This document shows positions 236 to 64,000 of a DNA stretch of 64,000 nt, piece by piece. Each line of letters opens with the position of its first letter. Positions within the stretch are counted from its first letter, which is position 1. The stretch is from positions 1 to 64,000 of the forward strand of contig PLOR01000016.1 of assembly GCA_003142185.1 (NCBI GenBank). Reading direction: 5' to 3'. Source of the stretch: Bryobacterales bacterium (GTDB lineage: Bacteria > Acidobacteriota > Terriglobia > Bryobacterales > Bryobacteraceae). Made by a program: the position numbers and the translations under genes. Below the pieces are notes generated by a model. That model was not told the origin of the DNA. It saw nothing but the letters and a program-made list of their open reading frames with translations, and did no database searches.

Positions 236-1273
236 ATGAGTCAAACCGAGCCGCTCAAATCCCGGCACCGCGAAATTCTGAATGCGATCGTGCGGAATTA
301 CATCGAAACCGGCGAGCCGGTCGGTTCGCACAGCATTTCGAGGAGCCGCAACCAGAATCTGAGCCCGGCTTCGATTCGCAACGTGATGGCGGACCTGGCC
401 GAAGAGGGTTACCTTTCGCAGCCCCACACCTCGGCCGGACGCGTGCCCACCGAAAAGGCCTTCCGCTTTTACGTGGGTTCGCTGGTAGCGGCGCGGCCGG
501 CGCCGGCCGAAGCGGAGCGGCTGCACCACGAATTCAGCGCGCTGCCCACGGTGGCGGCCGGCGTGGAGCGGTCCAGCCAGATTCTGACCGAGTTGACGCG
601 CAATGTGGGCATCGTGGCCGCCCTTCCGGCGCTGGCGCAGGAGCTGGATCAGATCGAGCTGCTGCCGCTGGCCGACCGGCGCGTGCTGATGATTCTGGTA
701 ACACGCGACCAGATGGTGCGCAACCGGGTGGTGACGCTGGAAGAACCAATCCGATCCGACGAGTTGCTTTCCATCCGCAATTACGTCAACCGCAATTTCA
801 GCGGCTGGCGGTTGGGAGACGCGCGCCGCGAGCTGTTGCGCCGGTTGCTGGAAGAGAAGGCGCTGTATAGCGAAGCGATGGGCAAGTTGCAGGTGCTGTG
901 CAGCAAGGGACTGCTGGATGTGGACACCTCGCCCGAAGTGCACATGGAGGGCGCCTCCAACCTGCTCGGCCTGGACCTGCACCTGACGCGGGAGAAGCTG
1001 CGCGAGCTGCTGCGGGCGCTCGAGGAGAAGCAGCGGCTGATCGACCTGCTGGACCGTTTCCTGGAGCTGCCGCCGGGCGAGCTGGAGGTGCGGGTGGGCC
1101 TGGAACAGGCGCATCCGGCGATGAAGGACCTTGCACTAATCGGCATGACCGTGCGGCTGGCCAGCGGTTTGCCGGCCAAAGTCGCCGTGCTGGGCCCCAT
1201 GCGCATGCGATACGCACGCGTGATGGCGGCCGTGATCCAGACCAGCCGGGCCCTCGAGAGCGCGCAGTTCTAG
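236..1273 (+). CDS. hrcA: Heat-inducible transcription repressor HrcA
   Basis: The 345-residue protein is full length for HrcA, the repressor of class I heat-shock (groE/dnaK) operons that binds CIRCE elements and is folded with help from GroEL. The N-terminal 75 residues form the winged helix, including the family signature ETGEPVGSHSIS and the segment SPASIRNVMADLEEGYL-like around residues 40-60, followed by HTSAGRVPTEKAFRFYV. The rest is the GAF-like dimerisation region. The ATG at 236 places the first residues where HrcA proteins normally begin. In many bacteria hrcA precedes grpE-dnaK-dnaJ; here the next gene encodes a PEP-CTERM protein, so that linkage is absent downstream. Confidence 0.95.
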   Translation: MSQTEPLKSRHREILNAIVRNYIETGEPVGSHSISRSRNQNLSPASIRNVMADLAEEGYLSQPHTSAGRVPTEKAFRFYVGSLVAARPAPAEAERLHHEFSALPTVAAGVERSSQILTELTRNVGIVAALPALAQELDQIELLPLADRRVLMILVTRDQMVRNRVVTLEEPIRSDELLSIRNYVNRNFSGWRLGDARRELLRRLLEEKALYSEAMGKLQVLCSKGLLDVDTSPEVHMEGASNLLGLDLHLTREKLRELLRALEEKQRLIDLLDRFLELPPGELEVRVGLEQAHPAMKDLALIGMTVRLASGLPAKVAVLGPMRMRYARVMAAVIQTSRALESAQF

Positions 1274-1547
1274 GGACTCGTGCACAGCGCAAGAGTGGAC
1301 CTTGCGTTCCAACGTCGCGTGCGAGTTAAGCTTCGGAGGATCGCCGGAGACCTCCTCAGAATCCAAGGCCGTGCGACTTTCATGTCCGGCACCCAAGACG
1401 CAATTCGCAGGTCGAGAGGACGGCGGTTTGGTTTATACTAAATGAAACCTGGAAGTCCAAAATTGGAGATTCCGGCTTGGACAAGGGTGATTCCAGGTAG
1501 CGGCTGGGAAGACACAAGAAAGAAATCCCGGCCATGAGGAGGACAGA

Positions 1548-2459
1548 ATGAACATGTTCAGAACATCAACGGGTTTCCGAACAATCTTGACACTAGCCGT
1601 TGCCGCCGCCGCGATTTGTCTCGCCGGCCTGCCGGCCTTCGGCGCCGCCGGGGTCCAGGTGAGCCTCGCGTCGTCCTTTAATGCGGATGACGTGCTGCGC
1701 TATAGCGGCGCCGCCTTCACCGCGCCAGGCATCTCATGGGACAATCCCACGCCAGGCGGCTCCGTAGACAATTGGATGGTCACGCAGAGCGCCGCGAACC
1801 AGCTCGCGGGCGGCGGCAGCGCGGTAGGCATCAATGACAATGGCTATTACCCGGCAAGCGGAGCGCGGCTCTACGATGTGCAACTGGGATTCACGAACGC
1901 GACGCCGACAGGCACGAACGTGGCGATCCGGTCAACCGCGGTTGGCAACTTCACCTTCAACGTACCGAACAACCAGTATTCGCAGTTTGCGATTTTCGGT
2001 TCGGGCGGGAGCGGGAGCTCGACCCTTACGATTACGCTGACTTACACCACCGGCTCACCCACGGTGCTGACGGGCGTGACGCTTCCGGATTGGTATAGCG
2101 GCGCCGGCACATCGGCGGCAGGCGCAGCCGGAACGTATTTCGCGCTGACACCCGCGCTGTCGCGGCAAGCGGCCTACAGCTTCCCGAGCGGCGGTTATCA
2201 GGTTCCGGGCTCCGCGGGAGCCTACATTTATGGAATCAACCTGGCGCCGGATTCCACCCGAGTGCTCACCAGCGTCGCAGTGTCCTACACGCCATCGAGC
2301 CCAGGATATACGGTCGCGAATTTCCTGGCCGCGGCAGGAGCGATTGCGGCAGGCTCCACTGGGACGGCAACACCGGCACCGGGCACCTTCGTTCTACTCC
2401 TGATGGGACTGAGCTTGGTTTGCTGGTTCTTCCTGCGCCGCCAGCGTAAGGCGTTCTGA
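1548..2459 (+). CDS. Secreted PEP-CTERM-type protein with PAPGT sorting motif
   Basis: The 303-residue protein has an N-terminal signal peptide (about residues 12-33, ending near GLPAFGA), a Ser/Gly/Thr-rich body of unknown fold, and a C-terminal sorting tail at about residues 276-303: TPAPGT, a hydrophobic helix, then RRQRKAF. This tripartite tail is the exosortase recognition signal, with Ala replacing the Glu of the classical PEP motif. The matching exosortase is likely the gene at 48782. A strong ribosome site AGGAGGA lies just before the ATG, and the 274-base gap after hrcA contains a TATACT hexamer near 1434 that could be its -10 box. The function of the body is unknown. Confidence 0.8.
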   Translation: MNMFRTSTGFRTILTLAVAAAAICLAGLPAFGAAGVQVSLASSFNADDVLRYSGAAFTAPGISWDNPTPGGSVDNWMVTQSAANQLAGGGSAVGINDNGYYPASGARLYDVQLGFTNATPTGTNVAIRSTAVGNFTFNVPNNQYSQFAIFGSGGSGSSTLTITLTYTTGSPTVLTGVTLPDWYSGAGTSAAGAAGTYFALTPALSRQAAYSFPSGGYQVPGSAGAYIYGINLAPDSTRVLTSVAVSYTPSSPGYTVANFLAAAGAIAAGSTGTATPAPGTFVLLLMGLSLVCWFFLRRQRKAF

Positions 2460-6764: not shown

Positions 6765-7306
6765 GCGCGTTGTCTCGAAATAGCCGGGCCAAATTCGGGC
6801 GATGGACGTGGCGCACGCACTCCTGCGTGCCGTGTCGAGACTCTTCTCGACACCTCCTTGCGGATGGGAAGCCGGGCGCCGGCGCGAGTGCCGGCGCGGC
6901 ACGCAGGAGTGCGTGCGCCACGTCGAGGCGCGGCTTCACCTTCGTCGAACTGATGGTGGTGATCTCGATCATCGTGATCCTGATCAGCATGGCCATCCCG
7001 ATCTACCAGAAGTCGATCATCCGCGCCAAGGAGAGCGTGCTGGCTAACAACTTGTTCACGCTGCGCACGGTGATCGACAATTACACCTACGACAAGGAAA
7101 AGGCGCCGCAGGCTCTACAGGACCTGGTGACCGAAGGCTACCTCAAGGATGTGCCCGTCGACCCGATGACCGGCGACAACTCGAGCTGGAAGATCGTGAT
7201 GGAAGACGCCAGCCAGGCGCTCAACCAGGCCGAACCCGGCATTTTCGACGTGCACAGCGGCTCGGATAAGAAGGCGCTGGACGGAACCGCGTACGCGGAC
7301 TGGTAG
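6761..7306 (+). CDS. Type II secretion GspG-like pseudopilin 2 with a repeat inserted in its leader
   Basis: The prepilin motif RRGFTFVELMVVISIIVIL and the C-terminal DVPVDPMTGDNSSWKI and FDVHSGSDKKALDGTAYADW show a second GspG-like pseudopilin, homologous to its neighbour. The best start is the GTG at 6761, which overlaps the preceding stop as GTGA and gives 181 residues. The leader before the cleavage Gly is then 57 residues instead of the usual 6-20. Residues about 16-55 are encoded by the palindromic repeat at 6806-6923; without it the leader would be of ordinary length. Because the leader is removed by the prepilin peptidase the insertion may be tolerated, if the longer leader is still recognised. 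Confidence 0.85.
   Translation: MSALSRNSRAKFGRWTWRTHSCVPCRDSSRHLLADGKPGAGASAGAARRSACATSRRGFTFVELMVVISIIVILISMAIPIYQKSIIRAKESVLANNLFTLRTVIDNYTYDKEKAPQALQDLVTEGYLKDVPVDPMTGDNSSWKIVMEDASQALNQAEPGIFDVHSGSDKKALDGTAYADW
6806..6923. repeat. Dispersed palindromic repeat family A, copy 1, inside a pseudopilin leader
   Basis: A perfect 26-base inverted repeat forms the ends (6806-6831 and 6898-6923; arm begins ACGTGGCGCACGCACTCC). Just inside is a hairpin GTGTCGAGA/TCTCGACAC (6832-6840, 6845-6853) with a CTCT loop. The element is 118 bases and adds no stop codon in the pseudopilin frame. Related copies are at 23646, 43429 and 59285. Confidence 0.9.
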
Positions 7307-10051: not shown

Positions 10052-10127
10052 GGACCGGCGATCGGTTTTTGTCGCCGGTCTTCCGCTCTCGAGCGACAGG
10101 CCACAAAAACCGATGGCCTATCCTACC
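10052..10127. repeat. Dispersed double-hairpin repeat family C, copy 1
   Basis: Two consecutive hairpins: GACCGGCGA (10053-10061) pairs with TCGCCGGTC (10072-10080), and GACAGGCCA (10095-10103) pairs with TGGCCTATC apart from one mismatch. The element ends with CCTACC. The same layout with different stem sequences is found at 40702-40794. Confidence 0.8.
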
Positions 10128-23645: not shown

Positions 23646-23778
23646 ACGTGGCGCGGGCAGTCCTGCCTGCTGTGTCGAGAGTCGTCTCGACATTTCTTGT
23701 GCGCGCGCGATACGCTGTCGTCGCGAAGAAACGTCGCCACGACTGGCGACGCTGCAGGCAAGACTGCCCGCGCCACGT
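23646..23778. repeat. Palindromic repeat family A, copy 2, abutting the lgt stop codon
   Basis: The ends are ACGTGGCGCGGGCAGTCCTG at 23646 and the near complement finishing CCCGCGCCACGT at 23778. Inside are two hairpins: TGTCGAGA/TCTCGACA (23673-23680, 23685-23692, loop GTCG) and CGTCGCCA/TGGCGACG. It ends on the base next to the lgt stop (23779-23781), so it would be transcribed as part of the lgt mRNA 3' end. Confidence 0.88.
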
Positions 23779-29742: not shown

Positions 29743-29830
29743 GAGCCACGGATGAACACAGATGAACACCGATAAGCCGAAATAAGCTAATTCTTTCTAA
29801 TCGGTGTTCATCTGTGTTGATCCGTGGCTC
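29743..29830. repeat. Large palindrome (31-base arms, one mismatch)
   Basis: GAGCCACGGATGAACACAGA... at 29743-29773 is complementary to 29800-29830 except for one base; the 26-base loop is AT-rich and stands out from the GC-rich background. The sequence CACGGATGAACACAGATGAA resembles repeats I remember from many unrelated bacterial genomes. It lies between pgsA and the permease gene. Confidence 0.85.
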
Positions 29831-40566: not shown

Positions 40567-40701
40567 CCGAAGCACAATCTAGACACGGGTAAGCGAAGTG
40601 TCTAGTTCCCTGATTGCGGGATTCGATGGTGCCGCGAGACCACTCGCCGGCGCTGGCTTCGAGCGGAGCCGGCAGCGCACTGAGCCGGGGAAAAACTCAC
40701 A

Positions 40702-40794
40702 GGTAGGACAGACGATCGATTTTTGTCGTCTGTCAAGGCGGCGTGATTGGGCGAGCGATGACAGACCACGAAAGGCGATGGTCTGTCCTACCTG
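40702..40794. repeat. Dispersed double-hairpin repeat family C, copy 2
   Basis: The outer ends GGTAGGACAGAC and GTCTGTCCTACC are inverted. Hairpin 1 pairs GACAGACGA (40707-40715) with TCGTCTGTC (40726-40734); hairpin 2 pairs GACAGACCA (40760-40768) with TGGTCTGTC (40779-40787). The likely start codon of the next gene (ATG at 40778) lies inside hairpin 2. Confidence 0.85.
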
Positions 40795-43419: not shown

Positions 43420-43428
43420 GGGGCGAAG

Positions 43429-43614
43429 CGCGGGCTGTCGAGCCTGCTGAGCCGAGAGTCGTCTCGGCTTTTCTTGCCGCGCCTCAACCCAGTAGTCCGC
43501 ACCTTCGGCCAGTGTTCTGGCTTCACGGAACTGTTTTCGATGCTTTGCTTCCATCCGATACCAGAGAAGAAAAGCCGAGACGACTCTCGGCTCTGCAGGC
43601 CGGACGGCCCGCGC
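43429..43614. repeat. Palindromic repeat family A, copy 3 (186 bases)
   Basis: A perfect 26-base inverted pair AGCCGAGAGTCGTCTCGGCT... (43450-43475 and 43567-43592) lies within outer arms GCGCGGGCTGTCGAGCC and its imperfect complement ending GGCCCGCGC. Each arm is itself a hairpin (GCCGAGA-GTCG-TCTCGGC). The central 90 bases carry no gene. It separates the ASH-type gene from the convergent SDR gene. Confidence 0.88.
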
Positions 43615-63216: not shown

Positions 63217-63999
63217 CTACCGGAAATTATGCACTTCGGCGGCGGCGCCTTCGGGCAGGGCGGCGACTCTGGCGGCTTTTACAGAGACCACGTCATCGAC
63301 GTTTTGCAGCACGCCATCGATCAGCAGAAACGGCTCGGTCAACACCACGAATTTGAAGCGATCGAAAGTTTTCGGATCGATGATGACATTGAAGACGCCG
63401 GTTTCATCTTCGACGCTGAGGAAGACGAAGCCCTTGGCGGTGCCGGGGCGCTGGCGCACGATGACAGACCCGGCAATCCGCACCAGGCGGCCGTTGGGCA
63501 TGCGAGCGAGAGCGGCGGCGCGGGTGACGCCGAGCGCGTTCATTTCGGCGCGGCGATGCGCCATGGGATGGCGGCCGATGGTGAGGCCGGTGCCGCGGTA
63601 ATCGGCCCACAGGCGCTCTTCGGTGTCCATGGGCGCGAGCGGCGAAGGCTCGCCGGTTTCCTCCTGCGGCTCGAGCAGCGGGCCCACCGGCAGCGTAGCG
63701 CGCTGCGCCTGCCAGAGCGCGTCGCGGCGATGGAACCGGCGGACAGGAGAGTTTGAAAGATCTGGTTGGCAGGCGGAAGCGCCTGCCCCACTTTCCTGCG
63801 CGTCCTTCGACAAAGTGGGGCAGGCGCTTCCGCCTGCCAACCTCCCGCCGATGGAGTTCAGTGCGCCGATTTCCGCCAGGCGGTTGAGCTCGTCCTTGCG
63901 CAGCTCGGGCACGCGCAGCGCCAGGTCGTCGATGCTCGAAAAAGGGCGGGCGCGAACGATGGCGCGGCCGGCCTCTTCGCGCAAACCCTTGGCGTAGCG
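63217..63999 (-). CDS. dnaE2: Error-prone DNA polymerase III alpha subunit, DnaE2-like (C-terminal part, 5' end beyond window)
   Basis: The last 260 codons are present. RYAKGLREEAGRAIVRARPF and LRKDELNRLAEIGALNSIGG form the helix-hairpin-helix region, FHRRDALWQAQRA is typical of DnaE2/ImuC, and the C-terminal OB fold (RIAGSVIVRQRPGTAKGFVF, LSVEDETGVFNVIIDP) ends with VHNFR, the usual DnaE2 close. Between GALNSIGGR and FHRRDALW lies an insert of about 26 residues encoded by a perfect palindrome (63764-63842). DnaE2 acts in damage-induced mutagenesis with ImuA/ImuB; whether those are adjacent is beyond the window. Confidence 0.88.
   Translation of the reverse strand, partial: RYAKGLREEAGRAIVRARPFSSIDDLALRVPELRKDELNRLAEIGALNSIGGRLAGGSACPTLSKDAQESGAGASACQPDLSNSPVRRFHRRDALWQAQRATLPVGPLLEPQEETGEPSPLAPMDTEERLWADYRGTGLTIGRHPMAHRRAEMNALGVTRAAALARMPNGRLVRIAGSVIVRQRPGTAKGFVFLSVEDETGVFNVIIDPKTFDRFKFVVLTEPFLLIDGVLQNVDDVVSVKAARVAALPEGAAAEVHNFR
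63764..63842. repeat. Perfect palindrome inserted in the dnaE2 coding frame (family E-like)
   Basis: Arms of 31 bases (63764-63794 and 63812-63842) are perfect complements, with a 17-base loop. Each arm has TTGGCAGGCGGAAGCGCC then TGCCCCAC, the same outer frame as family E (TTGGCA...TGCCC-C/T-AC). It is read through in the polymerase frame without a stop, adding residues GGSACPTLSKDAQES and following. Confidence 0.9.
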
Positions 64000-64000
64000 G

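Follow-up and report, generated by a model that had tools for sequence, protein, structure and literature searches.

A REPIN-like in-frame palindrome in dnaE2 of a Bryobacterales bacterium, and polymerase loops that may repeatedly receive mobile palindromes

The DNA analyzed here, a stretch of 64,000 nucleotides from a Bryobacterales bacterium (hereafter the window), ends within dnaE2, the gene of an error-prone DNA polymerase, and a perfect palindrome is present in the reading frame of this gene. Very likely, this palindrome is a REPIN-like doublet of a GTGG-tagged REP family spread by RAYT, which is probably ancestral to both known species of the genus and is tolerated in a loop of DnaE2. 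Comparison with further dnaE2 loci revealed that different palindromes occupy a small number of loops of this polymerase in different lineages.

The palindrome and its host gene

The palindrome is composed of two 31-nt arms (63764-63794 and 63812-63842), which are 100% complementary and are separated by a 17-nt spacer (63795-63811) with no symmetry of its own. It is located in the C-terminal part of dnaE2 (HhH and OB regions; 63217-64000, minus strand), the open frame of which runs off the window, and the perfect in-frame palindrome reported in the preliminary description was thus confirmed. The first arm holds a minus-strand REP unit (63768-63791; GTGG plus an 8-bp stem and a 4-base loop) and the second a plus-strand unit (63815-63838), with both tags facing inwards. 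When folded as RNA, the palindrome had a z-score of -9.83, and none of 200 shuffles folded equally well; the very stable mRNA hairpin proposed earlier was borne out as a prediction (-77.9 kcal/mol). Based on this fold and on the related copies that recur genome-wide, the palindrome is not a chance product. Two other candidates were rejected or left without support: an intrinsic terminator, as judged by eye from a coding strand that has no T run past the hairpin, and a phage or plasmid origin, as the 79 bases gave no match at E 0.001.

Beyond the window, dnaE2 forms an ORF of 1105 residues from stop to stop (contig C84, 63220-66534), which shows that the whole gene is open and its domains are kept, a check that had been called for earlier. 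The ORF matches the NCBIfam model PRK05672 of error-prone DNA polymerase (1180 bits; cut-off 939) as well as the Pfam domains PHP, polymerase, finger, HhH, and OB (the last slightly below cut-off). Of two ORFs upstream, one matches the Y family (IMS) weakly and the other matches RecA and, under cut-off, ImuA; by these sequence matches the region looks like a standard imuA-imuB-dnaE2 cassette. Beyond the window, dnaE2 has a second REP insertion, a single unit (C84:64050-64073) in the loop preceding the HhH domain.

The site of the doublet was compared in 27 of 30 loci from this genome and its relatives, with L051 (partial) and L052 and L053 (DnaE1-like) omitted. It is empty in 25 of the 27 and filled in this genome and in G001, the sole other genome of the genus. 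The in-frame insertion proposed in the preliminary description was therefore upheld, and the residues are not an ancestral part of the protein that close relatives carry without the palindrome. The frame is indeed open, but the suggested gain of about 26 residues was too small: the distance from GALN to HRRDA is 50 residues here versus 14 at the empty site of relatives, a net gain of 36, of which the palindrome itself accounts for about 26.

An AlphaFold2 model of the last 552 residues of DnaE2, built with 60 locus sequences, had a mean pLDDT of 86.4, and its best PDB matches were Pol III alpha chains. The two longest stretches with pLDDT <50 coincide with the two inserts (266-280 and 347-376), and a third (80-84) lies away from them. 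Both inserts are thus predicted to be disordered, flanking the HhH domain on either side. The doublet would then have landed between the HhH domain and the helix that follows it, in a disordered loop, and the polymerase would carry 36 tolerated residues. The doublet may have survived because it is stop-free in all frames, has a net length that is a multiple of three, and lies in a disordered loop. Presumably the protein with its inserts works, and the insert under study is probably near neutral. According to a survey of Pol III alpha subunits (PMC3919608), the clamp-binding motif comes after HhH and is non-canonical in DnaE2, which might make the post-HhH loops of DnaE2 tolerant.

A GTGG-tagged REP family and its RAYT link

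Each arm contains a GTGG tag, followed by a GGCAGGCG-CTTC-CGCCTGCC hairpin and an AAC tail. The stem pattern occurs in 98 copies on many contigs of the genome and the tagged unit has 115 matches at no more than one mismatch, with 0 matches for the reversed control in either case. These features fit the GTAG superfamily of REPs, i.e., a palindromic unit of 20-40 bases with many dispersed copies and an unpaired tag. Flanking sequence varies from copy to copy, and the element is stop-free in all six frames. In a sample of 101 genomes from the taxonomic family, 26 had the REP family, and in one of 199 genomes from the phylum, 4 did; this genome is counted in both samples.

Stem variation was counted in 89 units gathered without requiring a paired stem. 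There were 23 departures from the stem consensus, including 18 double Watson-Crick changes, 2 G-T pairs, and 3 broken pairs. Among 24 close pairs of REP units, 17 have their tags inside, 6 outside, and 1 is in tandem, and the two units differ in 12 of the 17 inward pairs. These paired stem changes and unlike units in doublets imply that pairing is kept by the single hairpin, not by the large palindrome; symmetry would then be maintained at the single-hairpin level and would not be a mark of youth.

The dnaE2 element has two inverted REP units with a short spacer, as expected of a REPIN. Seven Y1_Tnp matches were found in this genome, and 30 further loci were taken from seven REP-rich relatives. 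In 2 of these 37 loci a RAYT ORF has REP units on either side, and the GTGG unit was absent from the other 35. One of the two is L015 on contig C92 of this genome, where the 3' side has a full unit and the 5' side only a half unit adjoining a run of N; the other is L328 in G053 (another genus), where a 217-residue RAYT ORF lies between two inverted units. In a protein comparison of 22 loci with a typed HUH-like motif in the ORF, the C92 protein matched L328 best (60% over 139 residues), but L328 matched best not L015 but L316, a locus without REP units. Because REP units flank RAYT, the dnaE2 palindrome can be read as an inverted, REPIN-like doublet with the tags inside. It would be a non-autonomous pair of a family spread by a RAYT (Y1, HUH) transposase, which presumably moved the doublet itself.

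The gene context was analyzed for 69 elements (90 units), with only 18 other ORFs through or beside an element tested against Pfam; on this basis, 6 elements are supported within genes and 4 others are possible. The Pfam-backed in-frame copies are in dnaE2 (two), a CCA-type nucleotidyltransferase, BirA, LamB/YcsF, and probably glycosyltransferase 9. In three ORFs the unit is probably upstream of the gene, since the domain begins only past the unit. One of the 4 possible cases is a unit in L307 (ORF 1003-2439, minus strand), where the open frame that contains it also encodes the C-terminal domain of CRISPR Csm4, with one-sided domain support.

Several other repeats were noticed in the window. 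Further inverted pairs at 40700-40794 and 10052-10123 resemble a GTAG-tagged REP family (GTAGGACAGACGATCG..); the window has one copy of the core, and 219 kb of other loci of this genome have 4. Long imperfect palindromes at 6805-6924, 23646-23778, and 43428-43614 have GTGGCGC- or GCGCGGGC-type arms and are perhaps an additional REP family; GTGGCGCACGCA has two copies in the window and 7 more at other loci of the genome. In addition, GATGAACACAGATGAACACCGAT forms an inverted pair at 29743-29830, with 94% complementarity and a 19-base core found once in other loci of the genome.

Age of the insertion and a functional alternative

The doublet that G001 has at this dnaE2 site is also perfect, with GACAGGCG..CGCCTGTC in both units and four symmetric positions changed together relative to this genome. 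In view of these matching changes and of the paired stem changes seen genome-wide, the earlier suggestion that perfect symmetry indicates a recent insertion was not supported. A phenylalanine next to the site, before HRRDALW, is common to both genomes and absent from the 25 other loci, which favors one insertion before the species split. Most likely, then, the doublet would already have been in dnaE2 when the two known species of the genus separated.

A less likely reading, though one of appreciable probability, is that this REP family inserted twice, independently in each of the sister species, and hit one loop both times. By eye, neither the spacers nor the outer flanking sequences of the inserts align, and the unit variants differ (GGC..GCC vs GAC..GTC), with both variants present in this genome. 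The loop before HhH, moreover, was used independently in G000 and G021; the latter, from another genus, has its own GTGG-family unit there, read in a different frame. On the other hand, the adjacent phenylalanine and the same position are common to both species, and the mixed doublets described above show that individual units are swapped or modified in situ. Between the two species, each arm matches at 25 of 27 positions, compared with 348 of 475 fourfold sites (P 0.0004, with the two arms treated as independent) and 85.7% for the whole gene (P 0.10). Since the arms are not clearly above whole-gene identity, constraint on them is unproven.

We regard it as quite improbable that the insert was functionally recruited, i.e., that selection retains it because an mRNA hairpin, a DNA cruciform, or the extra peptide adjusts how much polymerase is present or how active it is. 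Such a role for REPs in repair genes was a speculation of Di Nocera et al. (PMC3733652). The predicted hairpin stability and the retention of the doublet by the sister species are consistent with this idea, as are the two REP insertions in dnaE2 and another unit upstream of the imuA-like ORF (C84:69236). However, the insert is missing from most dnaE2 loci compared, the loop before HhH is filled in this genome and empty in G001, and the same REP family is found in unrelated genes.

Control genes bear on the same question. Inverted repeats were scored without gaps (+1 per match, -2 per mismatch) and called strong at 17 or more. The 50 control genomes, which covered 40 DnaE1 and 40 LeuS loci, were chosen to include ten named dnaE2 loci with strong palindromes at a loop, a choice that favors dnaE2. 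In matched genomes thus picked to include dnaE2 positives, strong palindromes numbered 11 in dnaE2 vs 1 in DnaE1 (40 genomes), which would favor recruitment, and 10 in dnaE2 vs 4 in LeuS. The single strong DnaE1 repeat (L230) and weaker ones in L193 and L195 are in the DnaE1 counterpart of the pre-HhH loop. The four strong LeuS repeats, which argue against recruitment as LeuS is a housekeeping gene, are all from Verrucomicrobiota and in one loop. By length, there were 14 strong palindromes in 312.6 kb of dnaE2, 4 in 102.4 kb of LeuS, and 1 in 111.8 kb of DnaE1. In view of these controls, length-tolerant loops explain the pattern and targeting of repair genes is not established; the LeuS result means that the published repair-gene-target idea needs a genome-wide control. 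The palindromes in leuS of L240, L241, L242, and L244 are in frame and of AATGACGAA type, and a second leuS loop is used at lower score in L242, L244, and L240.

An assembly or amplification artefact (inverted chimera) might be imagined for a genome in 119 contigs with one REP copy adjoining a run of N, but its probability is negligible given the same-site doublet in the separate genome G001, the recurrence of the sequence as a family, and the frame that is open throughout.

Shared insertion loops and known systems

A total of 107 dnaE2 loci were aligned, comprising the 27 above and 80 named loci from at least 589 relatives and including near-duplicates (L098 and L032 have identical loops). 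Among the named loci listed, the nearest belong to Acidobacteria and Bryobacterales genomes. Fourteen strong inverted repeats were detected in the homologous part, in 13 of the 107 loci, and 13 of the 14 map to four loops. In the numbering of the last 960 residues of the DnaE2 ORF of this genome, these loops are at about 10 (L119, L121, L128), 667-696 (L152, L153), 753-786 (L024, L025, L139), and 808-817 (L106, L111, L123, L128, L130); the fourteenth repeat (L165) is beyond the aligned part. These numbers refer to loci and not to independent events; a single event probably lies behind L024 and L025, and one may lie behind L119 and L128. The single REP units before HhH in L024 and L026 score only 8 and were recognized by family, and the score-14 repeats in L130 and L168 look like chance, as they are in conserved sequence.

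Arm sequences of the loop palindromes differ between lineages, with unrelatedness judged by eye. For example, the arms in L153 (Planctomycetota) are perfect over 33 bases and belong to an AATTGCA-type repeat, which gave 15 matches on six contigs of its own genome and 0 in three other genomes. Some inserts at the dnaE2 loops are non-palindromic. L028, from another family of the order, has a GC-rich, non-palindromic tandem repeat in the loop before HhH; this loop therefore also accepts other repeat types. On balance, we favor the view that the four DnaE2 loops (one in PHP, one before and two after HhH) are convergent sites at which unlike mobile palindromes became protein repeatedly in Acidobacteriota, Verrucomicrobiota, and Planctomycetota, the pre-HhH loop being used in DnaE1 as well. 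If true, linkers in replicative and error-prone polymerases would have gained length from mobile palindromes again and again, providing a natural experiment on polymerase tuning.

Rickettsia palindromic elements are palindromes retained in frame within protein genes. In-frame insertion in protein genes is common to those elements and the present one, which is a likeness of behavior only; they belong to another bacterial group, and no membership is claimed for the present element. They are also named in PMC3733652.

REPINs, as presented by Bertels and Rainey 2011 (PMC3116915), share with the GTGG family inverted doublets, a variable spacer, and a RAYT with flanking REPs. The Pseudomonas REPINs are described there as mainly extragenic, whereas some copies are read as protein here. 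Likeness is also found in the GTAG-superfamily and intragenic REPs of Di Nocera et al. (PMC3733652), which have a tagged hairpin, inverted pairs, a RAYT link, and in-frame copies that encode 20-30 residues, with copies in dnaE2 among them (published in 2013). GTGG is an accepted tag variant according to the same paper, replacing GTAG in most GTAG-20 elements of O. terrae. The present family differs in its stem sequence and host group.

According to that paper, REPs that interrupt genes of a given functional category do so at sites that vary between species, recB excepted, whereas four dnaE2 loops are reused here; in this respect the shared loops go beyond PMC3733652. No report of shared dnaE2 insertion loops was found in the literature searched, the scope of which lay outside the supplementary tables of that paper, and the shared landing loops look new. 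The dnaE2 insert is a fresh example of a known thing, an in-frame REP doublet, and the twist is in landing loops common across lineages. A single odd palindrome has in this way led to a testable pattern, in which unlike mobile palindromes occupy the same loops of the polymerase from one lineage to another, and it can be asked whether such inserts are merely tolerated or alter the behavior of the polymerase.
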